Shown here one piece after another: positions 2,699 to 35,500 of a DNA stretch of 37,690 bases. A program made the position numbers and the translations under genes. The notes under the pieces are model-generated. The model saw only the letters and a program-made list of their open reading frames with translations, had not been told where the DNA came from and did not search any database. How positions within the stretch are numbered: the first letter of the stretch is position 1; each line of letters starts with the position of its first letter. This DNA is from a virus: the IMG/VR virus record IMGVR_UViG_3300046002_006532, positions 1 through 37,690 of that record. The stretch is one strand, 5' to 3'.

Positions 2699-2704
2699 AA
2701 ATTA

Positions 2705-15634: not shown

Positions 15635-18157
15635 TTATTTTTTTCTAATTATACTGGTATAACTCCATTCAGGTTTAAGTTTAAAAATTTCACACGATTC
15701 AATATTTTTTTCAAGATAATCACATTCTTCATCTGTCATATAATCTGAAACTAGTTTACCTGTTTTATTAAACATTTCTAACATATCAAGTGTTATCGTA
15801 TTTTTTTCAGATTTCCATATTGAATTAACATCATTCTTTACACTAACACTTGTATGTAAATCTTCTAATACGTACATACCACCACTTTTTATACTTTTAA
15901 ATAATTTAGCTAAAACAACTTGTTGGTCTTTCATTGCGTGACTTCCATCGTCAATAAATAAATCTATATCCACATTATCATTTGAAAACTCGATTAAAGT
16001 ATTACCAACATTAACATTAAATTCTAATAATTTAACTCGATTAAAATCATCAATATTAGCCCTATTCATTTCAAAATCAACACCTATTATTTCCGCATTA
16101 GTGAAAAATTCTCTCCATATGTTAATTGATTGTCCTTCATGAACACCTAATTCAACAACTTTTTTTGCAGATTCTTTGATTTTATCAAATTCAAGTTGAT
16201 AAACTTTATCAAAAAAATCATGTCCATAATGTTTATCTGTCGTATATTTTTCTGCTAAACCACTTAATTTTGAATAATCATAATTTTCGTTTATATTAAA
16301 AATTTTATTATGAATCTTATCTATTGTTCTATTTTTAATACTACCATACGCATACGCATGAAAAATAAAATTATTATCATTATATTTATTCCAATTAAAA
16401 CTTCTATTTGAAATAATTTTCATTTTACTAACATACTCACCTCTATCTTTATATAAATGAGTTAATGCGGTTTGGTCCATCCATAATCTGTTAGAATAAA
16501 ATCCTTCATGATTTAAATCATGTTCACCAACTTCAGGTCTTAATTCACAATCAATAGGTTTTAGGGTTTTACAACAAAAAGCCCAATCATTAAGAAATTT
16601 TTTACCCCATTCATTATTTTTTATTAAAAATACTCCAGCATTCATTAGACTATGAGTGCTTTCATCTAATGAGGCAATAAAATTATAATCTTTGTCAATA
16701 AATTCTTCAATTCTAATATTAAAATCAGATATTATAGCATCCGTATCTAAAAATAGTATATATTCAGGGTCAAAATTTTCAATAACGTCTAATATTAACT
16801 TTGGTTTGTACCAAGTAGGTGCAGCACCATTTATGTAATCCGTTATTGTTTGATTTGATTTTTCACAAAAATATCCATATCCATTTTCATCACAATATTT
16901 CTTATTTATTTTTTCAGCAAATGGTCCATGAGTTAAATTACTTGTGTAATATTGTGCGATGTAAATTTTTTTAATTTTATTTGTTTTTAAAATTCTAATA
17001 ATTAATCCTTTTTCGTCCGGTTGGATATATTGAGCTTGAGTATATTCTTTAAAATTCACATCATTTAAAATTTCATATTCATAATTTAAATTTTTAATCA
17101 TTTTTAAAATAATATTATAAGTATTTTCATTAGTTATAACACCATCATTTAAACTAAAAAAGATATTAATTTCACCGTCTTTTACTATTGTTTTAAGTAA
17201 ATTATTAAATGTGTTTTTAATTTTTAGGTCATGGGGATTTTTGAAATTAAAAACACATAAATTTTGTATAACTTCATCACCATATGTTATTGTTCTATCA
17301 TATATATCAGATATACTTCTAGCATAACCACCATAGTATTCCCAATTATTTTTATCTCGGTCTAACCCATACCAAGCACCTGTCTTACCCTCTGTACCAC
17401 TAACTCTATTAGTATTTAATTCAATACCTGAAGACCATTCATAATTTAGAATAACTTTTCTATTAGTTTTTAAATTATTATAGTAATTACTAATAATAAA
17501 ATCACAATAATACATTCGTTTACCCGTTGAATAATGAATTGTTAGATTTTTTTCACCTAAATTATAAAAAGCAGACATAGTGTCTATTATATGAAATTTA
17601 ACTTCCGGTATTTTTGAAAAGTGTTGCATTAATGTGGCATCTTCCAAATGATTAGTTTCATCATGTATATTTAAAATTTCTTCACATATTTTTTTACTGA
17701 AGAATATTCCTCCTCCACCACCTTGTCCGGACCATATAATGTCTTTATCAATAATTTCGTTAAAATATTTCTCTAAAACAAATGAATTAACATAGGTACC
17801 ATCGTCAACTCTTAAAATATAATCAAATTCTCTATTTTTTAATAACCATGTTATAGCCCCTTGAAGTTTTTTAACCATATTAGATGGTTTTTTTTGATGA
17901 TGTAAATAATAATAGTCGTATGTGTCGGTTTCGGTTAAATGTAAAATTTGATTTTTTTCATCAAAAGATACTTCCGGATTGTCTCCATCAAAAAAAATAA
18001 CTTCAATATTTTTATCCTTTAATTTAGATACCCAAGTATCCATACATGGTAATTTTCTAGTTAAATCAGCTCTATCTGATTGTATTGGGTCAAATGGTAT
18101 ATATAACTTTTCACTCATATAATTTTTTGAAGTGTAGGCCAAGACAATTAATTTCAT
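15635..18157 (-). CDS. Multidomain GT31-like / GT34-like glycosyltransferase fused to a SAM methyltransferase
   Basis: The product is 840 residues. Residues 1-210 resemble beta-1,3-galactosyltransferase or Fringe-like enzymes: FDYILRVDDGTYVNS with the acidic motif at 118-120, then GGGGGIFFSKK. Residues about 211-390 have no family I can name. Residues about 396-605 resemble GT34 (galactosyl/mannosyl, GMA12-like): IAQYYTSNL, TWYKPKLILDV, the DxD in ILFLDTDAI (471-473), NAGVFLIKN and WMDQTALTHL. Residues about 630-840 are a class I methyltransferase with the SAM loop ELGVHEGQS (669-677), an acidic strand end GVDFE and the DDGSH motif (736-740). The start overlaps the upstream epimerase stop (ATGA). 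One polypeptide may thus add two sugars and methylate the product or a sugar precursor. Confidence 0.75.
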   Translation of the reverse strand: MKLIVLAYTSKNYMSEKLYIPFDPIQSDRADLTRKLPCMDTWVSKLKDKNIEVIFFDGDNPEVSFDEKNQILHLTETDTYDYYYLHHQKKPSNMVKKLQGAITWLLKNREFDYILRVDDGTYVNSFVLEKYFNEIIDKDIIWSGQGGGGGIFFSKKICEEILNIHDETNHLEDATLMQHFSKIPEVKFHIIDTMSAFYNLGEKNLTIHYSTGKRMYYCDFIISNYYNNLKTNRKVILNYEWSSGIELNTNRVSGTEGKTGAWYGLDRDKNNWEYYGGYARSISDIYDRTITYGDEVIQNLCVFNFKNPHDLKIKNTFNNLLKTIVKDGEINIFFSLNDGVITNENTYNIILKMIKNLNYEYEILNDVNFKEYTQAQYIQPDEKGLIIRILKTNKIKKIYIAQYYTSNLTHGPFAEKINKKYCDENGYGYFCEKSNQTITDYINGAAPTWYKPKLILDVIENFDPEYILFLDTDAIISDFNIRIEEFIDKDYNFIASLDESTHSLMNAGVFLIKNNEWGKKFLNDWAFCCKTLKPIDCELRPEVGEHDLNHEGFYSNRLWMDQTALTHLYKDRGEYVSKMKIISNRSFNWNKYNDNNFIFHAYAYGSIKNRTIDKIHNKIFNINENYDYSKLSGLAEKYTTDKHYGHDFFDKVYQLEFDKIKESAKKVVELGVHEGQSINIWREFFTNAEIIGVDFEMNRANIDDFNRVKLLEFNVNVGNTLIEFSNDNVDIDLFIDDGSHAMKDQQVVLAKLFKSIKSGGMYVLEDLHTSVSVKNDVNSIWKSEKNTITLDMLEMFNKTGKLVSDYMTDEECDYLEKNIESCEIFKLKPEWSYTSIIRKK

Positions 18158-18834: not shown

Positions 18835-20082
18835 TTATAAATTACCAGTTAATCTATCACACCATCCTTTTGATGTGCTATAAGGCCATACAACCCAATA
18901 TTTTGGTTTAGATGTTGTTTGGAAATCTCTCCAAACTTTACAATACCCATCAGGGTCTTTCATCATACCGTTTATTTCATTGATGTCAGCATCTTTTCTA
19001 TAAAGAGTTTCATCTTTTTCATCGTGGAATGCAACAACCCAAAATTCGTAATCTTTTTCCGGAACTTGTTTAAATGAGATATCAATACAATGTTTGAAAA
19101 TACTAGCGAAACTTGCCAACCATTCTTCTTCAGTCTCAAATATAGTAGGATTTGGTGCGTATTTTTTATCTAAAGTATATTGTTGAACAGCTCTATTTGA
19201 AAATTTAAGACCTGAATAAATTTCATAATCTTTTAATGTTCTTTCAGTTCCAAATCCATACTTACTAAAATCCATATTAACTTCTTCACCATCCATTCCA
19301 AAAAGTTGTCTATTCTTTTTGTGAGATAACTCATTCTTTTTACCCCACTCTTTATCGTCATCCCATTGTTTTACCCTACCTTTACGAGTATACTCATGCC
19401 AAATAACTGTTTTATGTGGGTGGAATAAATCATATCCGTGAGTAAATGCTCTAACTGCTATGGAAATTTCTTCACCATGAAAATAAAACTCAGGGTCGTG
19501 TTGAACCTCAACACTAAATTGACCTAATGTGAACGCCATGTGAGCAGAATAAAAACGAGAAGTAATTGGTTGTTTAAGTTTTTCCCACCCCGGAATTGTT
19601 TCAGGTAAGAAGAAGACAGCACCTTCTGGTATAAATCTGTCAAACGACATTCTCCATGGGTCTCTAACTCTCCCTGCCGGGTCATTATCAGGGTCAAATG
19701 AAGAAACATATCCTGTTAATAAAGGTTTGTTAAATCCTTTCTTTTGAAGTTGTTTAATCATTTTGATTAATGTATCGTCCCAATCTTTTTCAAATCTCAT
19801 ATGAGAATCTATTTGAAGAGTATATTCCTCACCATCGTATAATTGTTGTACTTGATTTCTTGCCCAACAAACACCTTTAGCGTCAGAATATAAAACATCC
19901 TTAACTCTAAATCGTTTGTCTTTTTTAAATTTCTCTAAATTATCAAACCCATCTTCAGGGTGATATTGGCGACATATACCTATTCTTAAGTTCTTAGGTC
20001 TTTTAGCATTTTCCAACATACTATCTAATGTTGGAATAAGTTGGGGGTCACGATAGGAAGCTATCTGTACAAATATTTTCAT
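18835..20082 (-). CDS. GlcNAc-type glycosyltransferase (Skp1 GlcNAc-transferase-like family)
   Basis: The product is 415 residues. It opens MKIFVQIASYRDPQLIPTLD, then KNLRIGICRQYHPEDGF, then SDAKGVCWARNQVQQLYDGE, YTLQIDSHMRFEKDWD, and later FSVEVQHDPEFYFHGEEISI. These are the hallmarks of the Pfam family 'Glycosyltransferase (GlcNAc)' (PF11397), whose best-known member adds GlcNAc to hydroxyproline of Skp1 in Dictyostelium. The DSH in LQIDSHMRF takes the place of the DxD motif. It is the first gene of the minus-strand sugar operon and lies next to the mucin-like Thr/Pro gene, so a protein acceptor is tempting. No prolyl hydroxylase was seen in the window. The linkage type is therefore open. 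Confidence 0.85.
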   Translation of the reverse strand: MKIFVQIASYRDPQLIPTLDSMLENAKRPKNLRIGICRQYHPEDGFDNLEKFKKDKRFRVKDVLYSDAKGVCWARNQVQQLYDGEEYTLQIDSHMRFEKDWDDTLIKMIKQLQKKGFNKPLLTGYVSSFDPDNDPAGRVRDPWRMSFDRFIPEGAVFFLPETIPGWEKLKQPITSRFYSAHMAFTLGQFSVEVQHDPEFYFHGEEISIAVRAFTHGYDLFHPHKTVIWHEYTRKGRVKQWDDDKEWGKKNELSHKKNRQLFGMDGEEVNMDFSKYGFGTERTLKDYEIYSGLKFSNRAVQQYTLDKKYAPNPTIFETEEEWLASFASIFKHCIDISFKQVPEKDYEFWVVAFHDEKDETLYRKDADINEINGMMKDPDGYCKVWRDFQTTSKPKYWVVWPYSTSKGWCDRLTGNL

Positions 20083-20395: not shown

Positions 20396-22189
20396 TTATT
20401 CTGGACATGTTGTACCTTCATTACATATCCATAATAATACACCAGTAGGGTCAGTTGTTAATAACATGTTATAAGTGCTTATAATTTGACTTGTTACAAA
20501 TGGAGTTTCTAATGATGGGTCTGTATATAGATAACCACCTATAGTTGGTTGCTCATTTATTGGAAGATAAACAATTTGGATAGTTGGAGTTCCATCAAGA
20601 TAACAAACACCAGTATTACAATATGCACTACCAAGCTCTACAGTAAATTGATATGATGTCGGAGTCGCAGTTGATGTTGGTGTTCCCGTATTTGTTGGTG
20701 TATTTGTTGGAGTTTGAGTTGCGGTATTTGTTGGTGTTAATGTTGGTGTATTAGTTGGCGTATTAGTTGGCGTTAATGTAGGCGTGTTTGTTGGAGTAGG
20801 TGTTGGTGGAAGACATTGAGTACAACCACTATATTGACCTTGACCAAAATAATTTATTAAATTTAATGTGTTCGTACCACCCCAAGTAATGAGAGGGTAA
20901 ATTGAACCAGCAATTCCTTTAACATTCCAACAATTCCCTAAATTATCAATAACAGTATAAGAATACCAAGTAGAAAAAGGTCCACTAGTATAAGGTAAAT
21001 ATTCAATCGGTAATACCATTTCAGCGGTTGGTGATGCAGTAGGGTTAGAACAAGGGGCAAGTGACGCTATAAATGTTGTTTGTGTACTTGTTGGTGTTAA
21101 TGTTGGTGTAGAAGTTAATGTAGGTGTATTAGTTGGTGTTAATGTTGGAGTATTTGTTGGAGTTTGAGTTGCGGTATTTGTTGGAGTTAATGTTGGTGTT
21201 GGAGTATTTGTTGGAGTTTGAGTTGCGGTATTTGTTGGAGTTAATGTTGGTGTTGGAGTATTTGTTGGAGTTTGAGTTGCGGTATTTGTTGGAGTTAATG
21301 TTGGTGTTGGAGTATTTGTTGGCGTTTCTGTAGGTGTATTAGTTGGAGTTAATGTTGGTGTAGAAGTTAATGTAGGTGTGTTAGTTGGAGTATTTGTTGG
21401 CGTTTCTGTAGGTATATTAGTTGGTGTTAATGTTGGCGTAGAAGTTAATGTAGGTGTATTAGTTGGTGTTAATGTTGGCGTAGAAGTTAATGTAGGCGTA
21501 TTAGTTGGAGTTAATGTTGGCGTAGAAGTTAATGTAGGTGTATTAGTTGGAGTTAATGTTGGCGTAGATGTTAATGTTGGCGTGTTAGTTGGCGTTAATG
21601 TTGGTGTTTGCGTATTTGTTGGAGTTGATGTTGGTGTAGATGTTAATGTAGGTGTAATAGTCGGAGTATTTGTTGGAGTTGATGTTGGAGTTGGCGTCGG
21701 AGTCTCACTTGGTATTGGTACACAAGTATTATCAATACATATCTCATTAATAATTATGTTTACCCCTACCTCAGCCGATGGTAATCTACCACAATAATAT
21801 AAGATAGTCCCTGATTGAATAACGCTGTTTAACACAACGTTATTACATAGGGTTAAACTAAAGTTTAAAGCCCCCGAAGTTGTATTTTCAAATGATATAC
21901 AATTACAAACAACAACCATTGTTGGGGTCGGAGTTGCTGTTGTTGTTGGTGTCGGAGTTGGTGTTCCCGGACAACTTTGTAAAATAAATTCATCACAACC
22001 AATTGAATCGGTAACAACGACTAAAACTTGGTTAGCCCCATATAGTTCTATTGGAATAGTCAATAAAAGTGTTGGAGGAACAGAAACAACGCCGGTCGCA
22101 ACCACATAACAATACGTTAATGTTAAATCACATATTGATATATCAAATGGTGAGTGTCCGTTTAAACTGGTTATTTCTATTACTTGCAT
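20396..22189 (-). CDS. Mucin-like Thr/Pro-repeat virion protein
   Basis: The product is 597 residues, beginning [20 protein letters not shown]. Upstream in-frame codons reach an ATG at 22234, but that extension would run through the TATTTAT element, so 22189 is preferred. Three small Cys-containing beta domains (about residues 1-80, 95-165 and 375-450) and a C-terminal domain (about 515-597) alternate with long TPT tracts such as [15 protein letters not shown]. The small domains ([26 protein letters not shown]) resemble Cys-bearing structural domains of tail proteins. No signal peptide is seen. The TPT tracts would be extended, rigid and rich in possible O-glycosylation sites. The gene lies exactly between the two glycosyltransferase operons, so it is the prime acceptor candidate. 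Confidence 0.7.
21144..21329. repeat. 54-bp tandem repeat, about three copies
   Basis: GTTGCGGTATTTGTTGGAG recurs at 21168, 21222 and 21276, exactly 54 bp apart, with the intervening bases identical until the third copy diverges near its end. Each unit encodes 18 residues of the TPTNTATQ type on the minus strand. Perfect identity suggests very recent expansion. Confidence 0.9.
21415..21600. repeat. 42-bp tandem repeat, about four copies
   Basis: GTTGGCGTAGAAGTTAATG or a near copy recurs at 21432, 21474, 21516 and 21558, exactly 42 bp apart. Each unit encodes 14 residues of the [14 protein letters not shown] type on the minus strand. Copies differ by a few synonymous changes. Confidence 0.9.
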
Positions 22190-22193
22190 TACA

Positions 22194-22226
22194 ATAAATA
22201 TAGATAGAATTATTTTACCATAAATA
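22194..22226 (-). promoter_or_regulatory. Two TATTTAT elements upstream of the mucin-like gene
   Basis: One core at 22194-22200 ends 4 nt before the ATG at 22189. Another at 22220-22226 ends 30 nt before it. Either could be the promoter, the nearer one giving a leaderless transcript. Confidence 0.35.
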
Positions 22227-22240
22227 CTTAACAATTTTAA

Positions 22241-22292: not shown

Positions 22293-25200
22293 ATGTCATT
22301 AAACATCAAACATTACGATTTTATTGAAATTGGTACTTCAGATTTTGATACTTTAATTGAAACTTCTAATGACAAGACTGTCGGTATTAGTATTGAACCT
22401 ATAAAATATTACATAAATAGATTACCAGATAAACAGAACATCATTAAAGTCCAAGCGGCGTTATCAACAACTGATGGTGAAGTTGATGTATATTATATCG
22501 ATGATTGGAAAATTGAAGAAAATAACTTGCCTTGGTGGGTTAGAGGAAGTAACTCAATAAATAATCCCCACCCTTTTGCGATTAAAGAATTAGGTGAAGA
22601 ACTATACAATAGTTTGGTCACCATTGAAAAAGTACCAACGATTAGTTGGAAAACGTTAATTAACACATATAATATTGGGTCGGTTGATTATTTAAAAATT
22701 GACACTGAAGGTCATGACCACATTATCTTTAGAGATTTTTTGGACTATTGTAAGGAACACTCTTTTCCAATACCGAGTAAAATAACGTTAGAATATCACG
22801 ATGGTGTTTCAAACAAAATTGAGATTGATAAGTTAGTTTCAGAACTATCGGATTATCAAATGATAAGACATGTTAGTGATATTACATTAATTAAACCTCA
22901 AATACCAAGAGTGATTCATCAAACATATAAAACTAATGATTTACCAACTGAAATAATTGAAGTAGTTCAAAGGTTAAAAGATATGAACCCAACATTTGAC
23001 TATAAATTCTACAATAATGATGATTGTGTTAAATTTATTAAAGAAAATTATGATGAAGAAACCCTTAATCTTTATTTAAGTATTAACCCAAATTATGGGT
23101 CGGCAAGAGCTGATTTATTTAGATATCTTTTAATGTATAAAGTTGGTGGTGTTTATTTAGATATTAAAAGTTGTACTACAAAACCATTAGAAGAAGTCTT
23201 ATTACCAACTGACGAGTATCTATTAACACATTGGGAGGGTCTAGATTGGGCGGATGAATTAAAATATTATTTTGGTGAATTTCAAAATTGGCACATCATC
23301 TGTAAACCAAACCACCCATTTTTAGAAAATGTTATTGAAGTAGTTAAAGATAATATTAGAAATTACATTGGTGGCGCGGATAAGAATTCGGTATTAAGAG
23401 TTACCGGACCAATCGCTTATAGCAAAGGAATTTTAAACTTGTTGAATATCCACAAAACAAATCGTTTTGATTCTCCTGTTAGAGAATTTTTATTAGAAAA
23501 TGAAATTGGATTACAATATGTGTCAACACCTGTTCATCATCACAAAATAATTGAAAAATCATTCTCAAGAAAAGAACCTTTAATATTAAAAAATAAAGTA
23601 GAAAAATCATATCTATTATTAGCAACTGAAAATTATTTTGATGTTGCTAAAATGTGTATTAAATCAATTCGTGAATATAGTGATTTACCCATTTTCTTAT
23701 ATCTAATTAACTCTGATAAAGTGATAAACATTAAAGATGTGGTCACAATAATGTGGGATTTAGACTTAGTTGATGACAATTCCAATAGATACATTCAAGA
23801 GGGCGAAAATTTCTATATTAATAGAACCAATAAAACAATTTACAACATCTTAATACAAAAACCATTAATCACTAAAGACGTTTTATCTAAATACACTAAA
23901 ACGGTTGCGTTTGTTGATTGCGATTCAATTGCAACACCATATGTTGATAGAATCTTTGACTTATACGATAATGATAAAGATTATCCTTATTTTGTTGAAG
24001 GGATTTATGATTATCTACACGTAGGTGAACGAGGTGGTGCGATGACTAGAGATGATATGTCAACCACGTTGGAATACCCGGCATGTGAATTATTTAATGT
24101 TAATCAATATGTTAGAGAAAAATACCGACAAACAGGTTATTATGTATCAAATGAAAAATGTGTTGATTTTTTATCTGAATGGTATCAAATGTGTTCTCAC
24201 CCTGAAGTATTAAATAATATCCCATATTATGCGGCGTATAATGAGGAGACCATCTTAAATGTGTTATTGTGGAAAAAATTAATATTTGATGGGTTACCTT
24301 ACATTTATGCTAACGGAAATTTAGAATTAATAGATAATATTTATTCAAATTATAATATTAATGAAGAAAGTTTATGGGTTAAGATTCCAAACAAGAAAGA
24401 TGGTTTGTTATTTATTCACGGAGAAAAAAATATTTTAGAAATGGGTAAAATGATATCAAAAATCAAAAACCATCATAAAGAAAAAATTAGAGTTTTATTC
24501 TTGGCACCACATCTATCAACCGGAGGAATGCCATCATTTCTATTAAAAAGGATTGAATCATTATTGGAATATTATGAAGATAAAACAGAACTTTTTGTTG
24601 TGGAATATTCAAATCATAGTGACCATTTTGTTGTTCAAAAAAATAGAATTAAAGAATTAGTACCTTCGTCACATTTTTGGACGTTAGGTGAAGATAAGAA
24701 TGAATTAAAGAAAATTATTGAGGAAAATTATTTTGACATTATCCATTTAGATGAAATGATTGAAGCGTTTGATTCTCATAATAAATTGTCAAACAACTTA
24801 ATAAATTTTATTTATAAAAATGACCGAACATGGAGAGTCGTGGAAACTTGTCATAACATAATGTTTCAACCGGATAAAGAAAAAATATTTCATCCTGACG
24901 CATATTCATTTTGTTCTCCTTTTCATAAAGAAGTTACATTCGTTAATATGCCATCATATGGTGAACTAATTGAATTTCCCTACACACCTACAATCATATT
25001 ATCAAAAAAAAGTAGTAAAGAAAAATTAGGTTTAGACCCAAACAAAACTCACATTATAAATGTTGGATTATGGACATCGGGTAAAAATCAAGGTGAGGGT
25101 GTTGAGATTGCTAGATTAGTTGAAGGGGTTTACCCTGAATTAGAATTTCATTTTATTGGGAATCAAGCTCCTAACTTTCAAAATTATTGGGAACCTATAA

Positions 25201-26636
25201 TGAAAGACCTGCCAACCAATGTTAGAGTATGGGGTGAGAAAGATAATGTTAATGACTTTATGATGGCAGCCGATGTGTTAATGTTTAACTCAACTTGGGA
25301 ATGTAACCCATTAGTATTAAGAGAAGGAATATCTTATGGGTTAAAAATCTTATCAAGAAATTTACCACAATATATGGATATGTTTACACCGTATATTAAA
25401 CCAATTTATGGTGATATTTTTGATATGAAAAATCAACTTTTAGATTTAATTAATGATAATATTAATTATGGATTTCCATCATATGGGGTTAAAGAATTTG
25501 CTGAAAAAAATTACCAATTATATCAACAAATACTAAATCAACCTATAAAAAAACAAACAATGATTGACGAAGAAGTACAAGTACTCCAACATTTTGTTAA
25601 GGAACCCTTCTTAGAAATAAAAGGTAGTGGTGATAAAGATTATAATGTAAAATTCTTTGATGAAAATGGTGTTTGTCATTATGAGAACACAATAAAACCA
25701 AATCATTGGGTTAAATTAAGTCGTAGTTATTACACCAAATGGAGAGCAGTTGTGAGTAGAGATAATATTGTAATTTATGACAATACATTGGATTTAACTA
25801 ATAAGAGAGTTTATATCTCATTTGAGAGTAAATCATTAGGGGATTCAATTGCTTGGATTCCATATGTGTTAGAGTTTAAAAAGAAACATAATTGTAAAGT
25901 AATTGTGTCAACCTTTTGGAATCATTTGTTTGAAAATGAATATCCGGAGATTGAATTTGTGGTGCCCGGAGTTACAACACATAATCTTTATGCTATGTAC
26001 TCAATTGGGTGGTTTTATGATAAAAACAAAGAACCAATTTTACCAAACACAATACCTTTACAACAAACTATTACAAATATTTTAGGTTTAGATTTTGAAG
26101 AAATTAAACCTACAATACATAGTACCGTTAACACAAGACCTTATAAACAGAAATATATAACTATCGCAACCAATTCAACTGCGGGATGTAAATTTTGGAC
26201 AAGAGAAGGTTGGCAAGAACTAATTAACTATCTTCATAATTTAGGTTATAAAATTATTAATGTGTCAAAAGAAGATAACCCATTTTATAATGCAAATAAA
26301 ATTAAAAACACATCAATTCATCATACTATGAATGTGATTAATCATAGTGAATTCTTTATTGGTTTATCTAGTGGTTTATCTTGGTTAGCGTGGGGTTTAG
26401 GTAAAAAAGTTGTTATGATTTCTAACTTTACAAATGAAGACCATGAGTTTATACTTAATTGTACTAGAATTGTAAACCGTTCAGTTTGTAATGGATGTTG
26501 GAATAAACCTGAATTCACCTTTGATAAAGGGGATTGGAATTGGTGTCCCATCAATAAAGGGACTGAAAAACAATTTGAATGTCATACATCAATAACGCCG
26601 GAAATGGTTATTAAACAAATACAACATTTACTATAA
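22293..26636 (+). CDS. Five-domain glycan enzyme: FkbM methyltransferase, GT32-like, GT-A-like, GT4-like, BAHT-type heptosyltransferase
   Basis: The product is 1447 residues. Residues 1-200 are an FkbM-type methyltransferase with IEIGTSDFDTL (11-21) and VDYLKIDTEGHD (131-142). Residues 203-430 are GT32/OCH1-like: IPRVIHQTYK, ARADLFRYLLMYKVGGVYLD and the acidic DIK at 290-292. Residues about 438-700 form a GT-A-like domain with AFVDCDSIATPY (539-550). Residues about 731-1085 are GT4-like GT-B, with FLAPHLSTGGM, NVGLWTSGKNQGEGV and the ECNPLVLREG loop (1003-1012). Residues about 1100-1447 resemble the autotransporter O-heptosyltransferase (BAHT) family of TibC and Aah: YISFESKSLGDSIAWIPY, STAGCKFW, GLSSGLSWLAWGLG, then a Cys finger C1399-x2-C1402-x15-C1418-x11-C1430. 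It heads a seven-gene operon. Confidence 0.85.
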   Translation: MSLNIKHYDFIEIGTSDFDTLIETSNDKTVGISIEPIKYYINRLPDKQNIIKVQAALSTTDGEVDVYYIDDWKIEENNLPWWVRGSNSINNPHPFAIKELGEELYNSLVTIEKVPTISWKTLINTYNIGSVDYLKIDTEGHDHIIFRDFLDYCKEHSFPIPSKITLEYHDGVSNKIEIDKLVSELSDYQMIRHVSDITLIKPQIPRVIHQTYKTNDLPTEIIEVVQRLKDMNPTFDYKFYNNDDCVKFIKENYDEETLNLYLSINPNYGSARADLFRYLLMYKVGGVYLDIKSCTTKPLEEVLLPTDEYLLTHWEGLDWADELKYYFGEFQNWHIICKPNHPFLENVIEVVKDNIRNYIGGADKNSVLRVTGPIAYSKGILNLLNIHKTNRFDSPVREFLLENEIGLQYVSTPVHHHKIIEKSFSRKEPLILKNKVEKSYLLLATENYFDVAKMCIKSIREYSDLPIFLYLINSDKVINIKDVVTIMWDLDLVDDNSNRYIQEGENFYINRTNKTIYNILIQKPLITKDVLSKYTKTVAFVDCDSIATPYVDRIFDLYDNDKDYPYFVEGIYDYLHVGERGGAMTRDDMSTTLEYPACELFNVNQYVREKYRQTGYYVSNEKCVDFLSEWYQMCSHPEVLNNIPYYAAYNEETILNVLLWKKLIFDGLPYIYANGNLELIDNIYSNYNINEESLWVKIPNKKDGLLFIHGEKNILEMGKMISKIKNHHKEKIRVLFLAPHLSTGGMPSFLLKRIESLLEYYEDKTELFVVEYSNHSDHFVVQKNRIKELVPSSHFWTLGEDKNELKKIIEENYFDIIHLDEMIEAFDSHNKLSNNLINFIYKNDRTWRVVETCHNIMFQPDKEKIFHPDAYSFCSPFHKEVTFVNMPSYGELIEFPYTPTIILSKKSSKEKLGLDPNKTHIINVGLWTSGKNQGEGVEIARLVEGVYPELEFHFIGNQAPNFQNYWEPIMKDLPTNVRVWGEKDNVNDFMMAADVLMFNSTWECNPLVLREGISYGLKILSRNLPQYMDMFTPYIKPIYGDIFDMKNQLLDLINDNINYGFPSYGVKEFAEKNYQLYQQILNQPIKKQTMIDEEVQVLQHFVKEPFLEIKGSGDKDYNVKFFDENGVCHYENTIKPNHWVKLSRSYYTKWRAVVSRDNIVIYDNTLDLTNKRVYISFESKSLGDSIAWIPYVLEFKKKHNCKVIVSTFWNHLFENEYPEIEFVVPGVTTHNLYAMYSIGWFYDKNKEPILPNTIPLQQTITNILGLDFEEIKPTIHSTVNTRPYKQKYITIATNSTAGCKFWTREGWQELINYLHNLGYKIINVSKEDNPFYNANKIKNTSIHHTMNVINHSEFFIGLSSGLSWLAWGLGKKVVMISNFTNEDHEFILNCTRIVNRSVCNGCWNKPEFTFDKGDWNWCPINKGTEKQFECHTSITPEMVIKQIQHLL

Positions 26637-27313
26637 TGAACTTAACTAATTTTGATTGGGGATGGATGGAGCAAAGTGAAGAAGGTTTGTTTCATAAAGA
26701 ACAAATAACTCAAGAAACATTTATTGATAAAATATATGAAAAGTTTTTTGAAGTTTCTGAGGGTGATATTGTTTTAGATTTTGGGGCTAGTGTTGGACCA
26801 TTTACTTATAGTATTTTATCAAAAAAACCAAAACACGTATATTGTCTTGAACCGAGTGAATATGAATTTCCTACATTAGTTAATAACACTGTCGGTTATC
26901 CGGTTACACCAATATTGAAGGGTATCTCAAATACCAACACATATACTGACTGTAATGACATTTATGGGGGTTCAAAACAAATGGAAGGAATCACTTTTAA
27001 AAAACTTTGTGAGTTATACAATTTAAAAACCATAGATTTTTTAAAAACAGATTGTGAGGGTGGTGAATACGATATTTTTAATGATGAGAATTTTGAATTT
27101 ATTAAAAATAATGTTAAAAAAATTACAGGTGAATGGCATTTAGGTACACCAATTTTAAAAGAAAAATTTAAAAAATTTAGAGACACTTACTTACAATATT
27201 TTATAAATGTTGAGGTATACTCGATTGATGGTGTTAATGTAAAATGGAATTTAATGTCTGATAATTTTTTAGAACACTATACAGAAATAATAATACACAT
27301 ATATAACGTTTAA
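26636..27313 (+). CDS. FkbM-family SAM methyltransferase
   Basis: The product is 225 residues. VLDFGASVGPFTYSI (46-60) is the SAM-binding loop, VYCLEPSEYEF the acidic strand end, and TIDFLKTDCEGGEYDIF (about 132-148) the FkbM signature. Such enzymes O-methylate sugars or related hydroxyls. The start overlaps the stop of the five-domain gene by one base (TAATG), so the two are translationally coupled. It is a second FkbM domain in the operon, distinct from the N-terminal domain of its neighbour, which suggests two different methylation positions. The acceptor is unknown. Confidence 0.85.
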   Translation: MNLTNFDWGWMEQSEEGLFHKEQITQETFIDKIYEKFFEVSEGDIVLDFGASVGPFTYSILSKKPKHVYCLEPSEYEFPTLVNNTVGYPVTPILKGISNTNTYTDCNDIYGGSKQMEGITFKKLCELYNLKTIDFLKTDCEGGEYDIFNDENFEFIKNNVKKITGEWHLGTPILKEKFKKFRDTYLQYFINVEVYSIDGVNVKWNLMSDNFLEHYTEIIIHIYNV

Positions 27314-27317: not shown

Positions 27318-28136
27318 ATGAAACAAATATTTTTTAACTCTTCCCTACCCAGAAGTGGAAGTACATTAATTCAGAATTTATTAGCTCAAAATCCTGAAAT
27401 TTACTCAACACCAACATCAGGGTTGGTGGATTTTGTAATCGCCTGTAAAAACAATTACAATCACTCTCAAGCATTTCAAGCACAAAATCAAGATGAAATG
27501 ACCAAAGCGTTTGTTGATTTTTGTCAAGATGGTATGCAAGGTTATTTTAAAAGACTTACTGACAAACCAATCGTAATAGATAAAAGTAGAGAATGGGGTA
27601 TCAATTATAGTTTATTGGAAATGATAAATCCAAACCCAAAAATTATTTGTATGGTTAGAGATGTTAGAGCGGTCTATAGTTCAATGGAAAAGAATTTTAG
27701 AAAAAATCCTCATAGGGAAAACGGGATTCAAAGACCGGCAGAATTAATTGGTACGACATTAAATAAACGTATTGATATTTGGGCGGGTGGAGTACCTGTT
27801 GGAACTTCTATTGATAGATTATTAGATATTATACAACAAGGAATTGACGATAAAATGTTATTTATTCGTTACGAAGATTTAATGAGTAATCCTGAACAAG
27901 AAATGTCGAGAATATACGAATATTTGGGTGTACCGAATTATGATGGGCATGATTTTGAGAACATATCACAATTAACTCATGAAGATGATAGGGTACATGG
28001 GATATATGGTGACCATAAGTTAAGACCAAAATTTGAAAAAAAACCGGATGACTATATGGAAGTTTTAGGTTATGAACTATCAATGAATATTAAGAATCAT
28101 TACAAATGGTTTTATGACTATTTTGGTTATGTATAA
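27318..28136 (+). CDS. PAPS-dependent sulfotransferase
   Basis: The product is 272 residues. The N-terminal SSLPRSGSTLIQNLL holds the phosphosulfate loop (PRSGS, 11-15). CMVRDVRAVYSSMEK (111-125) is the 3'-phosphate-binding segment with Arg114 and a Ser near 121-122. MLFIRYEDLMSNPEQEM (about residue 175 on) and YLGVPNYDGHDF are typical of the Sulfotransfer families. It transfers sulfate from PAPS to a hydroxyl or amine, with carbohydrate or Tyr as common acceptors. It starts 4 bases after the FkbM gene and is followed by APS kinase, which makes PAPS. Given the surrounding transferases, glycan O-sulfation is the simplest reading. A tyrosylprotein or small-molecule acceptor cannot be excluded. 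Confidence 0.88.
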   Translation: MKQIFFNSSLPRSGSTLIQNLLAQNPEIYSTPTSGLVDFVIACKNNYNHSQAFQAQNQDEMTKAFVDFCQDGMQGYFKRLTDKPIVIDKSREWGINYSLLEMINPNPKIICMVRDVRAVYSSMEKNFRKNPHRENGIQRPAELIGTTLNKRIDIWAGGVPVGTSIDRLLDIIQQGIDDKMLFIRYEDLMSNPEQEMSRIYEYLGVPNYDGHDFENISQLTHEDDRVHGIYGDHKLRPKFEKKPDDYMEVLGYELSMNIKNHYKWFYDYFGYV

Positions 28137-28155
28137 AATTTTAAAAAAATAAAGA

Positions 28156-28608
28156 ATGGCAATATATTGGTTTACAGGTCAACCAGGCGCTGGTAAGACC
28201 ACATTAGCAAAACACGTTAAAGATTATCTACAACCAAGTAATGTTATATTAGTAGATGGTGATGACATTAGAGATGTCTTCCAAAATAAAGATTACTCTG
28301 AAATAGGGAGAAGAAAAAATATTGAGAAAGCTCAAGACATTTCATTATTTTTAGATTCAAAAGGATTTGATGTGATAGTCTCATTAGTTTCACCTTATAA
28401 AGACCAACGAGATGAATTTAAAAACAATCATAACGTATTAGAATTTTACATTCATACTGAAGATGTTAGAGGTAGAGAAGATTATCATGTATCAAACTAT
28501 GAACCACCTACTGAGAATTTTGTGGACATTAATACGACAAATGTTATTGAACAAAAATCTGTTGGGGAAATAATAAACAAAATTATTGAATTTAAAACAA
28601 ATGGGTAA
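28156..28608 (+). CDS. cysC: Adenylylsulfate (APS) kinase, CysC-like
   Basis: The product is 150 residues. WFTGQPGAGKTTLAKHV holds the P-loop (8-15), VILVDGDDIRDVF (30-42) the APS-binding and Walker-B-like segment, and GRRKNIEKAQDISL (51-64) the family Arg/Asn motif. YHVSNYEPPTENFVDINT matches the C-terminal CysC pattern. Cellular CysC is about 200 residues, so this is a compact version that keeps the core motifs. It phosphorylates APS to PAPS, the sulfate donor for the preceding sulfotransferase. Its last codons overlap the start of the nucleotidyltransferase gene. An alternative is another gluconate- or shikimate-type kinase, but DGDDIRD and the downstream motifs favour CysC. Confidence 0.85.
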   Translation: MAIYWFTGQPGAGKTTLAKHVKDYLQPSNVILVDGDDIRDVFQNKDYSEIGRRKNIEKAQDISLFLDSKGFDVIVSLVSPYKDQRDEFKNNHNVLEFYIHTEDVRGREDYHVSNYEPPTENFVDINTTNVIEQKSVGEIINKIIEFKTNG

Positions 28609-29011
28609 TTGGGAAAGAAAAACACACGTACAAGCAGCATTTGCTTCATCATCATCAAATAAAAAATATTCAATGTTTGTGGGTAGATGGCAACCGTGGC
28701 ATCATGGTCATAGAGCATTAATTGACCAACAATTGGATAGAGGTAAAAATATTTTACTATGCGTTAGAGATGTTGAAATTGATGATAAAAATCCATTTTC
28801 AACAGAATGGGTTATTGAAAACTTAAATAAAGAATTAAAAGACCTAATTGACGAAGGAAGATTAGTAATTCAGGTAATTCCGGATATAGAAAGTGTTAAC
28901 ATTGGTAGAGGTGTCGGATATGATGTTTATGAACATTTTCCACCTGACGATATTAAAAACATTTCCGCAACAAAAATTAGAGAACAAATGAAAAAAGACG
29001 GTAAACTATAA
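28601..29011 (+). CDS. HxGH nucleotidyltransferase, possible minimal ATP-sulfurylase-like or cytidylyltransferase-like enzyme
   Basis: The product is 136 residues from ATG 28601, which overlaps the CysC stop (ATGGGTAA). A TTG at 28586 would add five residues and is less likely. MFVGRWQPWHHGHRALID carries the nucleotide-binding H-x-G-H (residues 34-37 region, HHGH) and NISATKIREQM (120-130) carries the second signature (I-S-x-T-x-I-R). This is the fold shared by cytidylyltransferases, NMN adenylyltransferases and the catalytic domain of ATP sulfurylase. Operon position after APS kinase makes sulfate adenylylation attractive, but a 136-residue protein lacks the PUA-like domain of known ATP sulfurylases. 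Activation of a sugar phosphate is an equal alternative. Confidence 0.8.
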   Translation: MGNWERKTHVQAAFASSSSNKKYSMFVGRWQPWHHGHRALIDQQLDRGKNILLCVRDVEIDDKNPFSTEWVIENLNKELKDLIDEGRLVIQVIPDIESVNIGRGVGYDVYEHFPPDDIKNISATKIREQMKKDGKL

Positions 29012-29226: not shown

Positions 29227-29227
29227 T

Positions 29228-30103
29228 ATGAATGTAATTTTTCAAATAGATGGTGGACTAGGTAAAAGTATCTTGGGAACCGCAGTATTAAAAGCAATAA
29301 AAAAACAATACAGTAAGGCAAATATAATTGTAGTTACTAGTTATCCGGACGTTTTTGTTAACAACCCAAATGTTAACAAAGTTTTGACTCACGAAACAAT
29401 AAGTGGTGTGTATGAAAAATACATTCTAAATAAAGATGCAAAAGTGTTTGTATCTGACCCATATGCAACTTCTGATTATATCACTGAAGAAAAACATCTA
29501 ATTCAATTATGGTGTGAAATGTATGGTCTAAATTACAACGGTGAAAAACCTGAATTATTTATTAGTAAAGCCGAAAGACAATACTTTGAAGGGTTCTATA
29601 AGTTAGATAAACCAATTATGGTTATTCAACCTCATGGGGGAGCATTTAATCAACCATTAAAATATAGTTGGACAAGAGATATCCCTCAACCAATTATGCA
29701 AGACATTATAAATCATTTTGCAAATGATTATGCTATCTTACATGTTAAACGAGAAGACCAAATTATTTATGAAAATACGTTTCAAGCGTTAGATTCATTT
29801 AGAAGTATTGCAGTATTATTGAGTATGTCAACAAAAAGATTGTTAATTGATAGTAGTGTGATGCACATCGCAACTGCGTTAAATTTACCATCAGTGGTGA
29901 CTTGGGTTGGGACAAATCCAAAAATGTTTGGTTATGATATTCATAATAATATTGTGGCTAATGAACCAACCAAAACACCTGATTTAAATCACCCACATTA
30001 TTCTAAATATCTATTATTCCAAGATATTAGCTCCATACCTTATAACGACCTGTATGAAGTTTTTGATACTCAAAAAATTATAGATGCAATTAATAAACAA
30101 TAA
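29228..30103 (+). CDS. GT9-like glycosyltransferase (heptosyltransferase-like GT-B)
   Basis: The product is 291 residues. It opens NVIFQIDGGLGKSILGTAVL, the GD-type loop of GT9 enzymes, followed by NIIVVTSYPDVFVNNPNVNKV. The C-terminal half has PIMVIQPHGGAF, then LHVKREDQ, then KRLLIDSSVMHIATALNLPSVVTWVGTN as the donor site (bases about 29847-29920). GT9 members transfer ADP-heptose or related sugars. It resembles a free-standing relative of the last domain of the five-domain enzyme, but without the Cys finger. It is the last gene of the plus-strand operon, 1 base after DUF2061, and is closed by a terminator. Donor and acceptor are unknown. Confidence 0.78.
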   Translation: MNVIFQIDGGLGKSILGTAVLKAIKKQYSKANIIVVTSYPDVFVNNPNVNKVLTHETISGVYEKYILNKDAKVFVSDPYATSDYITEEKHLIQLWCEMYGLNYNGEKPELFISKAERQYFEGFYKLDKPIMVIQPHGGAFNQPLKYSWTRDIPQPIMQDIINHFANDYAILHVKREDQIIYENTFQALDSFRSIAVLLSMSTKRLLIDSSVMHIATALNLPSVVTWVGTNPKMFGYDIHNNIVANEPTKTPDLNHPHYSKYLLFQDISSIPYNDLYEVFDTQKIIDAINKQ

Positions 30104-30131
30104 CAAAAAACCCTCATATGAGGGTTTTTTT
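30104..30131. terminator. Bidirectional rho-independent terminator
   Basis: CCCTCATATGAGGG (30111-30124) is a perfect palindrome with an A-run to its left and a T-run to its right. It terminates the plus-strand operon ending at 30103 and the minus-strand pair ending at 30130. Confidence 0.9.
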
Positions 30132-31464
30132 AATTTAAATTAAGTTCGTTTTTTTTAATAATCCAATATCCATTGTCAAATATTTTTGCGTTAGGTATGT
30201 TAACATTTTCATAACAATTACCTCCAATATACCCATCATCTTTAATTTTATCATAATATTGATTAATTAAAGGTAATATATCTTCGTTTTTTCTATTATT
30301 AATAAATAAAAATGAAATGTCATTAAAATTATCAACCACATCTTCAGGTTTTTTTTCAATATGAGATATATTTTTAAAGTGATAGGTATTACTGTGAAAC
30401 CCAATTCTAACATCTTCCCAAGTAACTTCGTTATTAACATTAAATTCATCTTCTCCAAATAAAGGGTCTATTGAATAGATATTAGTAAATAACCCACAAC
30501 TACCAAAAAAGAAAGTTAATTCCCCAAGATGAGGATAAAGTTCAATCATGGTCTCATTTTCACCTAACTGAGTTAAAAGAAATCCTAATAAACCGGAAAT
30601 CCCAAAAAAATTAGATTTATTAAATTTTTGTATTCCAAATTTTGGTTTATCTAAAACCATTTCAAAATATCTATCAGTAATGTCTTTAGGCTGTTTTAAA
30701 TAATTTACAATTTTTTTATTTAAAACATTTCCATCTTGGTCAAATGAAAGCCCCACACGTCCGCTATTTTCTCTAAATTCATTATAGTAGGTATCAGAAT
30801 CCGCATTTTCAGGATTAAAACCATCACTTATTTGTTTAAATAAATTATTTTTTAAAGTGAAAGAATTATGAGTATTATAAAATTGTTCTAAATAAAGGTC
30901 CGAGGCATATTTGATTGGATAATATTCGTCTGACATAGTTTTTATCGTCTCTCGTGTTGCAATATAAGCATGAGCTCCATTGTAATTTGTATTAAATCTT
31001 GGGATTACTAAATGTTTCCCCACATTAATCCCCGTTTGTCCTCCGGTTTTCTTACCTAAATGAATTAAATCCCAATCATATTGTTGGATTTCATTAAATA
31101 TACTTTCATATTGTGGTGTAAAACTCCCATTCTCTAAAACAGGGTTTGTTAGATAAACATCGTCCTCTAAAAACAATGCGGTCTCAACACCATCTATTAA
31201 GGCTTGTTCCCATGCCTTTTTATGTGATAATGCACAAGCAAAAACACCCATAGTTACTTTACCCCAAGGGTCTAAAAATGATTTATTCAGTTTTTTTTCA
31301 GTAATCAATTGTTCAACAGATAATAACTTACCGTCAACAGCTTCAATAAATGTCAAATCAAGACCCGGAAGAGTTTTAATAAGTGCTTCTTTTCTATCGG
31401 GTCTACGCTTTAAATTAATCACATATATTTTATCAAAACCTAATGTTGATGTTTTATTAATCAT
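30130..31464 (-). CDS. GT25 glycosyltransferase fused to a methyltransferase-like domain
   Basis: The product is 444 residues. Residues 1-250 are GT25 (LPS/collagen-type galactosyltransferase family): FDKIYVINLKRRPDRKEAL, LTFIEAVDG, GVFACALSHKKAW and the metal site ALFLEDDVYL (99-102). Residues about 265-444 have a class-I-methyltransferase-like strand order (MIELYPHLGELTFFFGS, NIYSIDPLF, ISFLFINNRKNEDILPLINQ, DGYIGGNCYEN) but no clean glycine loop, so activity there is uncertain. The start overlaps the stop of the upstream gene (ATGA). It is transcribed toward the terminator shared with the plus-strand operon. GT25 enzymes act on LPS or, in eukaryotes, hydroxylysine of collagen. The nearby fibre has a collagen-like part, but this link is speculative. 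Confidence 0.78.
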   Translation of the reverse strand: MINKTSTLGFDKIYVINLKRRPDRKEALIKTLPGLDLTFIEAVDGKLLSVEQLITEKKLNKSFLDPWGKVTMGVFACALSHKKAWEQALIDGVETALFLEDDVYLTNPVLENGSFTPQYESIFNEIQQYDWDLIHLGKKTGGQTGINVGKHLVIPRFNTNYNGAHAYIATRETIKTMSDEYYPIKYASDLYLEQFYNTHNSFTLKNNLFKQISDGFNPENADSDTYYNEFRENSGRVGLSFDQDGNVLNKKIVNYLKQPKDITDRYFEMVLDKPKFGIQKFNKSNFFGISGLLGFLLTQLGENETMIELYPHLGELTFFFGSCGLFTNIYSIDPLFGEDEFNVNNEVTWEDVRIGFHSNTYHFKNISHIEKKPEDVVDNFNDISFLFINNRKNEDILPLINQYYDKIKDDGYIGGNCYENVNIPNAKIFDNGYWIIKKNELNLN

Positions 31465-32583: not shown

Positions 32584-35500
32584 TTATTTATTATTTGGTT
32601 TAAGTATTTCAATACCATTCCAATTTTCAATGGCATCTTTATCCTTTCTTGTTCCAATTACAAGAACATTATATCGAATATCCTTGTCTGCAAATATATT
32701 AATATTTTCTTCAATATCATCAATAACCCCATATGCAATTCCAAAACCATTAAAAGGACTCACCCATACTTGAGTATTTTTATTCAAATACTTATAATAA
32801 TCAGGTAACTTAATAATAGAGGTCCCATTTACAACATCAACAACATATCTATATATATTATCTCCTTCTGTAGGTGATTCAACAAATGAATGTTGTAAGT
32901 ATTTCGTTTCTGTTTTATTTGGGTCAGGGTGGTTAATTCTAAATGTTCCGGATGTTTTAGATAATGCCTGAACAAATGTTGTATTACTAGCACTTGATGT
33001 TAAATTAGAACCAATTATGTGAGAATTATAGTGAGTAACAGTATTTGACGCTCCCCCCAAAATAGATGAACAATTACCAGAAGCAGTATTACCACAACCA
33101 CCACCAATTGTTGACTGAGTCCCTGTTGCACAGTTTTTAAAACCACCCGTAATTGTTGAAGTTTGACCAGAAGCAATATTACAACGACCACCTCCAATTA
33201 TAGACCACGCCGAACTTGCGGCAATAACATTTAATTCACCACCTCCAATAAATGAAGAACATACTGAGATAGTATTTCCCGAACCACCAGCAATTGTTGA
33301 AAAACAACCATCATTTTGGATAGTATTACAACACCCTCCAGCAATTGTTGAACAACGAGAATTACCACATGTAAGATTAAATCTACCTCCTCCAATCGTC
33401 GAAGAATGACCACACGCGTGATTAAAATAACCACCACCAACTGTTGCACACCCATCAGATGCCCTATTACATTTACCACCCATGACGGATGTATATGAAT
33501 TTAACGCAACATTTACCGCACCTCCTCCAATAAATCCGGAACAACAAGAAACACAGTTTGCTCTACCTCCTGCAATTGTTCCATGACCCGCACTTGTAAT
33601 TCTATTGTTTTGTCCTCCACCAATAGAACTATATTCACCACAAGTATAATTATTGTAACCACCAGCAATTGTTGATGCTTTACTATTAGTAACTCCGTAG
33701 TTTCCTTTTACAAAATTACCACGACCACCACCAATTGTTCCAAAACAATGATTACCAGCACTTTTGTTAGTACATCCTCCACCAATTGTTGAGAAAAGAC
33801 TACAAGCAAAATTTGACTTTCCTCCACCGACTGTTGAATAACAACTAATTGAACAATTTAAATAACCCCCACCAATTGTTGAGAAAATAGATGTAGAAGT
33901 AGTGTTCTTACAACCTCCACCAATAAATGTGAAATTACCACAAGCACAATTTAATAACCCACCACCAATTGTTGAAAAAATAGCTGTAGAAGTTTTGTTA
34001 TTACAACCTCCACCAATAAATGTGAAATTACCACAAGCACAATTTAATACCCCACCACCAATTGTTGAATAACAACCAGAAGCACTATTGGAATTACCAC
34101 CACCAACAAAAGAAGCAGTATTAGAAGCAAGATTATTTGACCCTCCCGCAATTGTTGATACAATACCAGATGCAGTGTTAGCAGAACCGCCACCAATTGT
34201 TGAAAAATTACCAGAAGAAATACCATATCTTCCACCACCGATAAACGAAAAACAACCAAAACTTTTATTTGCAAAACCACCACCGATTGTTGCAAAATTA
34301 CATCCATTAGGGGCGGTAGTTGTATTTACTAATCTTGGATTATTTCCATAAGTAAACGTTTGGTTTGTATATAAACAAGTATAATAACTAGAATAAACAA
34401 CATTAGTGATTTGTCCTACGTAAGTGGTATTATTATAATTAGATGAAATAAAATTATCTCCAATAGTAAATGATGATGTTTGGTCGCCATAAATAACAAA
34501 ACAATTAGAATTAACACAATATGATTTAAATATAGTTTCATTAGATGTTATGTTTAAATTACCACCACCAATAAAACCGGATTGAGATTTATTTAAATTT
34601 ACCTTACCACCACCAATTGTTGAACTAACATTAGTAGCAATATTATTTTTACCACCAGCAATTGTTGAATAATTCCCTCCAGAAGTATTATTTCGACCAC
34701 TACCAATAAATGAACTATCTCCAGAAGCAGTATTTTGACCACCACCAGAAATTGTAGAATAAAAATCAGAAGCAGTATTTTGACCACCACCAGAAATTGT
34801 AGAACGATTACCACAAGCAGTATTAGAAGTACCACCACCTATTGTTGAACTTGTGGAAGCAGAAAAGATTAAATTACCACAACCACCACCAATTGTCGCA
34901 TATACTCCTCCATTACAGTTTTTAAAACCACCCGTAATTGTTGAAGTTTGACCAGAAGCAATATTACAACGACCACCTCCAATTATAGACCACGCCGAAC
35001 TTGCGGCAATAACATTTAATTCACCACCTCCAATAAATGAAGAACATACTGAGATAGTATTTCCCGAACCACCAGCAATTGTTGAAAAATAACCATTAGT
35101 TTGTATAAGATTACAACACCCTCCAGCAATTGTTGAACAACGAGAATTACCACATATAAGATTAAATCTACCTCCTCCAATTGTCGAAGAATGACCAGCC
35201 GCTTGATTACAATAACCACCACCAACTGTTGCATACCCATCAGACGCCCTATTACATTTACCACCCATAATTGATGTGTAAAAATTTGACGCAACATTTA
35301 CCGCACCTCCTCCAATAAATCCGGAACAACAAGAAACACAGTTTCCTCTACCTCCTGCAATTGTTCCATGGCAAGCAGAAGTCCACGTACAATTGGATTG
35401 ACCACCACCAATTGTTGAATGATGAGCCGTAGGTGCCGTAGAATTGCATTCACCACCACCAATGAATGAACAAGTACCCTGTGCCAAATTACATTTTCCT

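Follow-up and report, generated by a model that had tools for sequence, protein, structure and literature searches.

The closest described relatives of the domain considered here are TibC and AAH, O-heptosyltransferases of the BAHT family, whose canonical substrate is the strand-loop-strand target repeat modelled by TIGR04415. The TibC report gives D110, T226, K230, R286 and W305 as active-site residues, together with four iron-binding cysteine residues, and describes a beta-hairpin thumb (F265, V266) needed both for the dodecamer and for activity; R286 is reported to be the basis of the choice of ADP and to be needed for full activity, the alanine mutant being inactive or weak, and AAH, with Ser at position 300, takes both ADP-heptose epimers (PMC4358343). 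We analysed a 37,690-base virus record from IMG/VR (IMGVR_UViG_3300046002_006532, G000; the whole stretch is called the window below), which may be a fragment and encodes a 1447-residue fusion protein with a BAHT-like C-terminal domain. Like TibC and AAH (PMC4358343; PDB 4rap, 4rb4), this domain has the GT-B fold, the N-terminal barrel, the equivalents of D110, T226, K230 and W305, the four-Cys finger, a match to TIGR04414 and the Ser300 of AAH. It differs from them in being thumb-less, in having Thr for R286, in being fused behind other glycosyltransferases and in having collagen-like repeats nearby instead of strand-loop-strand ones. The protein probably sugar-coats the phage's own fibre.

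The sugar of the Riftia cuticle collagen is galactose, added by an unrelated enzyme, and the capsids of the mycobacteriophages Che8 and Rita are glycosylated by enzymes other than BAHT. Both cases are precedents, the first for sugar-stabilised collagen and the second for virion glycosylation: in the available portions of the sources, the Riftia collagen, an animal protein, has glycosylated threonine and a stability tied to sugar on a hydroxy amino acid (PMC11766948), and Che8 and Rita (cited in PMC11256854) have virion glycans and their own glycosyltransferases, the decorated structure being the capsid and not a fibre. Collagen-like proteins of phages and prophages have similar Gly-X-Y repeats, with no glycosylating partner apparent in the part of that work that was available (PMC3368898). 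Neither a phage BAHT nor a fibre acceptor was apparent in the titles and abstract beginnings listed by searches of open-licence literature, one of which returned mostly animal viruses.

The fusion protein and its domains are located as follows.
22293..26636, plus strand: multi-domain glycan-assembly protein of 1447 aa (open reading frame, ORF; Pfam and NCBIfam domains)
22368..22736, plus strand: FkbM-type methyltransferase domain, aa 26-148 (PF05050, E 3.4e-10)
22947..23198, plus strand: Gly_transf_sug domain, a glycosyltransferase (GT) with DXD sugar-binding region, aa 219-302 (PF04488, E 2.1e-9)
23610..24428, plus strand: GT-A-fold glycosyltransferase domain resembling LgtC and the blood-group A/B enzyme, aa 440-712 (structure)
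25005..25397, plus strand: GT4-type glycosyltransferase domain, aa 905-1035 matched (PF00534, E 8.6e-7)
25590..26633, plus strand: BAHT-like domain, aa 1100-1447 (TIGR04414, 276.5 bits; TibC, Z 37.0)

The family model TIGR04414 (hepto_Aah_TibC) matched residues 1115-1445 with 276.5 bits (hmmscan, E 3.1e-82), above its curated cut-off of 200 bits, and a phmmer search of PDB sequences with the BAHT-like domain retrieved TibC 4rap with an E of 5.7e-50. The AF2 model of the domain (pLDDT 90.4) exhibited an N-terminal barrel and a GT-B catalytic domain of the TibC kind and could be superposed on 4rap with a Z of 37.0 and an rmsd of 2.1 over 342 aligned residues (model 1-348 on 4rap 27-387); the next structural matches were other GT9 heptosyltransferases with Z values of 18.6-20.9 (WaaC, 18.8). 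The domain also matched PF01075, the GT9 heptosyltransferase family, with 30.4 bits against a gathering threshold of 22 (best stretch 1275-1388); all 40 viral BAHT proteins scanned matched this family at an E of 0.001. The resemblance to TibC is far beyond chance. An earlier sequence-only reading of this DNA, made on the letters of the stretch, had proposed TibC/Aah homology for the last 350 residues, and both the profile search and the predicted structure bear it out.

The conserved residues were examined in an alignment of 101 distinct IMG/VR domains, the window included, and 85 bacterial rows, after 70 identical, short or weak rows had been dropped. The viral rows were the best 80 of 266 matches to the window query and the best 80 of at least 587 to an alignment query, and the bacterial rows the best 80 of 431 (78 loci); since only the best rows of each kind were taken, the viral clade is defined near the query. 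Several of the records are related, L460 being for instance 89% identical to L084, so that the counts given here are not independent. The L012 frame, which is broken, was omitted from the first TibC alignment and later cut at the break.
25842..25844, plus strand: D1184, equivalent to the TibC catalytic base D110 (alignment; 101/101 viral and 85/85 bacterial rows)
26190..26192, plus strand: K1300, equivalent to TibC K230 (alignment; 186/186 rows)
26487..26582, plus strand: iron-finger residues C1399, C1402, C1418 and C1430, equivalent to TibC C339, C342, C358 and C370 (186/186 rows)

D110, K230, W305 (here W1364) and the four cysteine residues were thus present in all 186 rows, while T226 (here T1296) was found in every one of the 101 viral rows and in 55 of the 85 bacterial ones, and position 300 was occupied by the AAH-like Ser in every viral row. 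The four-Cys feature is kept with the spacing C1399-x2-C1402-x15-C1418-x11-C1430, and iron binding is predicted by homology. The motifs quoted in the sequence-only reading, including the donor site and the Cx2Cx15Cx11C finger, were all found, and its expectation that the donor and Cys-finger residues would agree with TibC held for D110, T226, K230, W305 and the four cysteine residues and failed for R286. Two departures from TibC were located in the alignment.
26265..26298, plus strand: site of the missing TibC beta-hairpin thumb, 10 residues shorter (alignment)
26325..26327, plus strand: T1345 at the position of TibC R286, which contacts adenine (alignment)

The thumb segment has 37 residues in TibC and in 77 of the 85 bacterial rows, as against 27 residues in 100 viral rows and 26 in the remaining one, and F265 and V266 are missing from all 101. 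With the thumb absent, a TibC-type dodecamer is not expected, and a thumb-less, ring-less enzyme would be better suited to a long substrate of triplet repeats than to one beta-helix held in a ring. Position 286 is an arginine in 79 of 85 bacterial rows; among the viral rows it is a threonine in 100, an alanine in one and an arginine in none. Outside these rows, the Microcystis phage Mel-JY01 (PP395634) has an isoleucine there and the huge phage LR756504 a leucine. The bacterial-filed locus L087 has a near full-length thumb segment, yet Thr at 286. Because features that define the family, namely the thumb, Arg286 and a strand-loop-strand partner, were looked for and found to be lacking, we do not class the domain as a canonical BAHT, contrary to the earlier assignment.

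A quick phylogeny was built without bootstrap from 69 identity-thinned rows, the thumb columns being excluded; its deep forks are weak. One clade (SH-aLRT 100) held 43 IMG/VR rows, and a separate one (SH-aLRT 99) the 16 bacterial rows of the TibC type. The bacterial rows closest to the viral clade came from Schekmanbacteria, Methylococcaceae and a Rickettsiaceae bin. Mel-JY01, LR756501 and LR756504 fell outside the viral clade but, within these weak forks, on its side of the tree; all viral rows taken together did not form one clade. Phage-borne Aah/TibC homologues have precedents: at least 587 stretches in IMG/VR encode relatives, and the BFVD viral structure library already has one viral protein named Aah/TibC. 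Of 50,697 deposited phage records, on the other hand, just 4 match, none of them reaching 60% identity. The phage origin proposed in the earlier reading agrees with the stretch being a virus record.

The fusion architecture is common in the viral clade. In the window protein the order is FkbM methyltransferase, Gly_transf_sug, GT-A, GT4 and TibC-like domain, the GT-A domain (AF2 model pLDDT 83; top PDB Z 16.0, LgtC Z 15.8) having been revealed by structure alone, as Pfam at an E of 0.01 gave nothing for aa 440-712. Among the 40 viral BAHT proteins scanned, the GT4 family was present in 39 and TIGR04414 in 40, and 94 of the 96 distinct viral BAHT ORFs with an intact 5' end had at least 600 residues, the other two being short. 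BAHTs of the viral clade are nearly always the C-termini of multi-glycosyltransferase fusions.

The candidate acceptor in the window is encoded on the opposite strand.
32584..37689, minus strand: giant fibre protein whose frame runs off the end of the record; proposed acceptor (Pfam Collagen, E 1.2e-11; a fibre role appears likely)
37342..37683, minus strand: 38 strict Gly-Thr-Ser-type collagen-like triplets (sequence)
33088..37155, minus strand: 51 GGGxxN repeats (sequence)

This ORF lies 5,948 bp from the end of the fusion gene, in agreement with the giant repeat protein reported 6 kb away. It matched Pfam Collagen PF01391 with 44.6 bits (cut-off 27.2), with Gly at each third residue, and a run of even 8 triplets was obtained in just 3 of 1000 shuffles of the fibre protein; the run is longer in record G026, whose BAHT domain is identical to that of the window. 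The GGGxxN repeats may be YadA-head-like. No autotransporter family was matched by the fibre in NCBIfam (E up to 0.1) or in Pfam (E up to 0.01). The earlier proposal of the fibre as acceptor is retained in so far as a phage fibre is the likely target; the 38 Gly-Thr-Ser triplets, which had been overlooked, are a likelier site than the Ser/Gly/Asn repeats that had been favoured.

We compared the two kinds of repeat around other BAHT genes. TIGR04415 repeats were detected in 16 of 16 searched genomes chosen for a canonical BAHT, in none of 8 genomes with a non-canonical one (L082-L088, L147) and in none of 36 phage records, which may be fragments; among 14 named control genomes, only E. coli matched. 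The strand-loop-strand target repeats assumed by the sequence-only reading were found neither in the window nor in the other 35 phage records searched. Strict Gly-X-Y runs of at least 8 triplets inside the fetched flanks (up to 10 kb) occurred near 6 of 6 thumb-short bacterial BAHTs (L082-L086, L088), at 41 bp to 5.1 kb, versus 2 of 72 others (Fisher 1e-7), namely the phage-like L147 and L120, with a GDK-type run 8.5 kb off. The Methylobacter and Methylomicrobium proteins were above the Pfam Collagen cut-off and the Acidiferrobacterales protein below it. Sampling of 151 genomes from the Methylobacter order turned up 10 matching genes, spread over 9 genomes: 3 genes were already known, 3 were new and thumb-short and 4 canonical; a Gly-X-Y gene lay within 154 bp of 3 of 3 new thumb-short genes and of 0 of 4 canonical ones (4-kb loci), and 2 of the 4 canonical genes adjoin Ser/Gly-rich autotransporter-like ORFs, as judged by eye. 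Among 274 genomes of the class of L086 only the known case was found. The window domain thus resembles the thumb-short BAHTs of Methylobacter/Methylomicrobium, Acidiferrobacterales and Schekmanbacteria (L083-L086, L088) and of the Methylobacter order (L460, L462, L463) in its shortened thumb and its nearby Gly-Thr/Ser-Ser collagen-like gene; these differ in being cellular, stand-alone proteins of about 370-430 aa, those of L083-L086 and L088 being 36-41% identical to the window domain. L082, L087 and L147 are filed as bacterial, and the DNA beside their BAHT-type genes appears phage-like by eye.

The same association was seen in phages. Ser/Thr-rich Gly-X-Y runs were present in 18 of 27 BAHT loci (8-21 kb) versus 1 of 40 control regions (20 kb, elsewhere in the same 27 of the 36 records; Fisher 8e-9), and looser repeats (TSG or TPT) in 24 of 27 versus 4 of 40. 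Of the 85 non-redundant viral BAHT loci that are 8 kb or longer, 45 contain such a run, the median separation being 1,675 bp. In 16 phage loci with runs of at least 12 triplets, X is mainly Thr or Ser and Y mainly Ser, proline being outside the top eight residues. Gly-X-Y runs lie 1.7 kb (Mel-JY01) and 3.7 kb (LR756501) from the BAHT gene, and LR756504 has none in its fetched flanks. In the reverse direction, TIGR04414 was over its cut-off in 11 of 50 repeat-bearing records (12 at an E of 0.001), which were the first 50 of at least 20 kb among 80 listed of 120 loci, as compared with 1 of 31 in a set chosen through an arbitrary pattern, whose records are on the whole smaller (1 of 18 of those of at least 20 kb; Fisher for 50 versus 31, 0.02). 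The link from repeats to enzyme is weaker than that from enzyme to repeats.

Proline-poor, collagen-like Gly-Ser/Thr-Ser runs, each contained in one phage frame, number 920 triplets in L047, the maximum, and 684 in L033. The repeat region of Mel-JY01 (L238:739-2298) is annotated on the opposite strand, whereas the other strand strongly matches Pfam Collagen; its Gly-X-Y frame (2-3052, plus strand) overlaps opposite-strand coding sequences, and same-strand annotation covers 2519-3052 only.

Around the fusion gene and the fibre, the window encodes a second possible acceptor and several further enzymes.
20396..22234, minus strand: Thr-Pro-Thr-rich mucin-like protein, second possible acceptor (56 TPT in 612 aa)
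26636..27313, plus strand: FkbM methyltransferase (PF05050, E 2.7e-8)
27318..28136, plus strand: sulfotransferase (PF13469, E 4.3e-22)
28156..28608, plus strand: adenylylsulfate-kinase-like protein, CysC-like (PF01583, E 3.7e-16)
28586..29011, plus strand: small nucleotidyltransferase, cytidylyltransferase-like (PF01467, E 3.8e-6)
29228..30103, plus strand: second GT9-like protein of the heptosyltransferase family (PF01075, E 4.6e-5, 23.3 bits, cut-off 22)
30130..31464, minus strand: GT25 glycosyltransferase (PF01755, E 1.7e-20)
18835..20082, minus strand: GlcNAc-type glycosyltransferase (PF11397, E 3.2e-71)
15635..18157, minus strand: GT34 plus methyltransferase protein (PF05637, E 1.3e-15)
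13951..15633, minus strand: HtrL/YibB-like protein (PF09612, E 7.5e-15)

The gene for the mucin-like protein, which has no Pfam match, is divergent from the fusion gene across a gap of 59 bp, and TPT frames similar to it recur in several related loci. A cassette of sulfotransferase, CysC-like kinase, small nucleotidyltransferase and GT9-like protein is found in the window (27318-30103) and in L067, L076 and L080. Among the 85 viral BAHT loci, the sulfotransferase and the CysC-like kinase are each present in 20 and the L080-type kinase in 5. The recurring sulfotransferase cassette suggests phage-made PAPS and sulfated glycans. We considered the small kinase and nucleotidyltransferase of the window as ADP-heptose genes and rejected them, their top Pfam matches being APS kinase and the cytidylyltransferase-like family.

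Neither HldE kinase nor GmhA was matched in the window record or in G001, a relative of 318 kb. After the BAHT gene of L080 come genes for an HldD-like epimerase (168 bits), an HldE-kinase-like protein (121 bits) and an HldE-nucleotidyltransferase-like protein (101 bits), for which heptose families were the top NCBIfam matches, each under its curated cut-off, and the cassette also holds a small protein with a weak capsule phosphatase match. A BAHT domain was present in the fetched flanks of 5 of 20 viral loci with an L080-type kinase, a count that includes the record of the kinase query itself. The stretch L080:7817-10436 appears as a split ADP-heptose-type cassette that includes phosphatase-like and cupin-like genes, and pieces of it turn up in further viral loci, whether or not these have a BAHT. 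The huge phage LR756501 encodes an HldE-kinase homologue at 209213-210175 (306 bits; cut-off 345), and LR756504 has at 430182-430640 a GmhA that scores above its cut-off.

On balance, we lean towards a fused glycan-assembly enzyme whose thumb-less TibC-like domain puts the first sugar on the phage's collagen-like fibre. The C-terminal GT-B domain with its four-Cys finger, a member of a thumb-less sister branch of the BAHTs, would prime Ser/Thr residues of the Gly-(Thr/Ser)-Ser fibre; the first sugar would most likely be heptose, donated by an NDP-heptose. Extending and capping the glycan would then fall to the fused GT4, GT-A and DXD-type domains and to the FkbM methyltransferase, and the adjoining sulfotransferase cassette may add sulfate.

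Several results weigh against this proposal. The loss of R286 means that the donor may differ in its nucleotide and even in its sugar, and it is not strictly coupled to the loss of the thumb, since the thumb-short L086 and the huge phage LR756501 retain the arginine. No Ser/Thr-rich Gly-X-Y run was present in 40 of the 85 viral loci of at least 8 kb or in 9 of the 27 control-test loci, and the repeats seem not to require a BAHT, as 39 of the 50 repeat-bearing records, which are fragments, were without TIGR04414 over its cut-off. HldE-kinase matches occurred in 7 of 36 phage records, none above the cut-off, and in 14 of 14 control genomes, 2 above it; matching all 14 controls, this search is unspecific. 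GmhA was matched in 1 of 36 phage records (control genomes 9 of 14, 2 above the cut-off), and neither the window nor most BAHT phage records show heptose genes. Finally, sharing a tail-fibre island could reflect a common host-interaction function.

On this last point rests the reading, in our view unlikely, that in the infected cell the fusion modifies the host surface, be it LPS, capsule or adhesins, perhaps to shut out competing phages, its fibre neighbours being part of a host-interaction island. LPS heptosyltransferases have the same fold, and the pelagimyophages offer a parallel: as far as the available text goes, their glycosyltransferases and tail fibres share a variable host-recognition cluster, the same genomes have rfaE, collagen repeats and YadA domains, and host O-chain changes are suggested (PMC7029224). 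These islands differ in that this host O-chain modification is the reading given there, neither a BAHT nor a fibre acceptor being named in that text (PMC7029224). Against a host target, homologues from this part of the tree also have Gly-Thr-Ser proteins as partners outside phages, in methanotrophs and further bacteria, and the N-terminal barrel and the Cys finger of the TibC type are kept.

Glycosylation of the collagen-like fibre with a sugar other than heptose, the change of Arg286 to Thr marking a changed nucleotide-sugar donor, appears quite improbable. R286 is replaced in 101 of 101 viral rows and most records do not show heptose genes, as this explanation would have it; on the other hand, L080 and its relatives bear a heptose-type donor cassette by the BAHT gene, the heptose-contact Trp is retained, and Gram-negative hosts usually make ADP-heptose. 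The DNA polymerase, the helicase and a small protein of this phage indicate no single host. Least credible by far is a canonical function on host strand-loop-strand autotransporters or on an autotransporter-like phage head, for although TIGR04414 is above its curated cut-off and the catalytic residues are conserved, the missing thumb argues against a TibC-type dodecamer, Arg286 is lost, TIGR04415 repeats are lacking from all 36 phage records and the clade is separate.

The fused enzyme, for which the phage fibre is the proposed target, is a variant beyond the canonical BAHT, a thumb-less TibC-like branch with a collagen-like candidate acceptor, and the earlier interpretation was partly right. 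More tentatively, and as a possibility that we hold short of even, the thumb-less BAHTs of phages and bacteria might be O-glycosyltransferases dedicated, as a class, to proline-poor Gly-(Thr/Ser)-Ser collagens, in which sugar on Ser/Thr would take over the stabilising role of (hydroxy)proline in animal collagen; a single fused enzyme would then give very long glycosylated, possibly sulfated fibres, and some phages would supply their own heptose donor. Large phages have many glycosyltransferase genes that lack an explanation, and for part of these the proposal offers a concrete function, in which the virion fibre and not the host would be decorated. It splits the BAHT family by the thumb, which tracks the neighbouring repeat protein, and it provides a simple testable pair, the enzyme and a (GTS)n collagen, present both in methanotrophs and in a Microcystis phage that is in culture. 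If true, it would represent a prokaryotic route to stable collagen without hydroxyproline.

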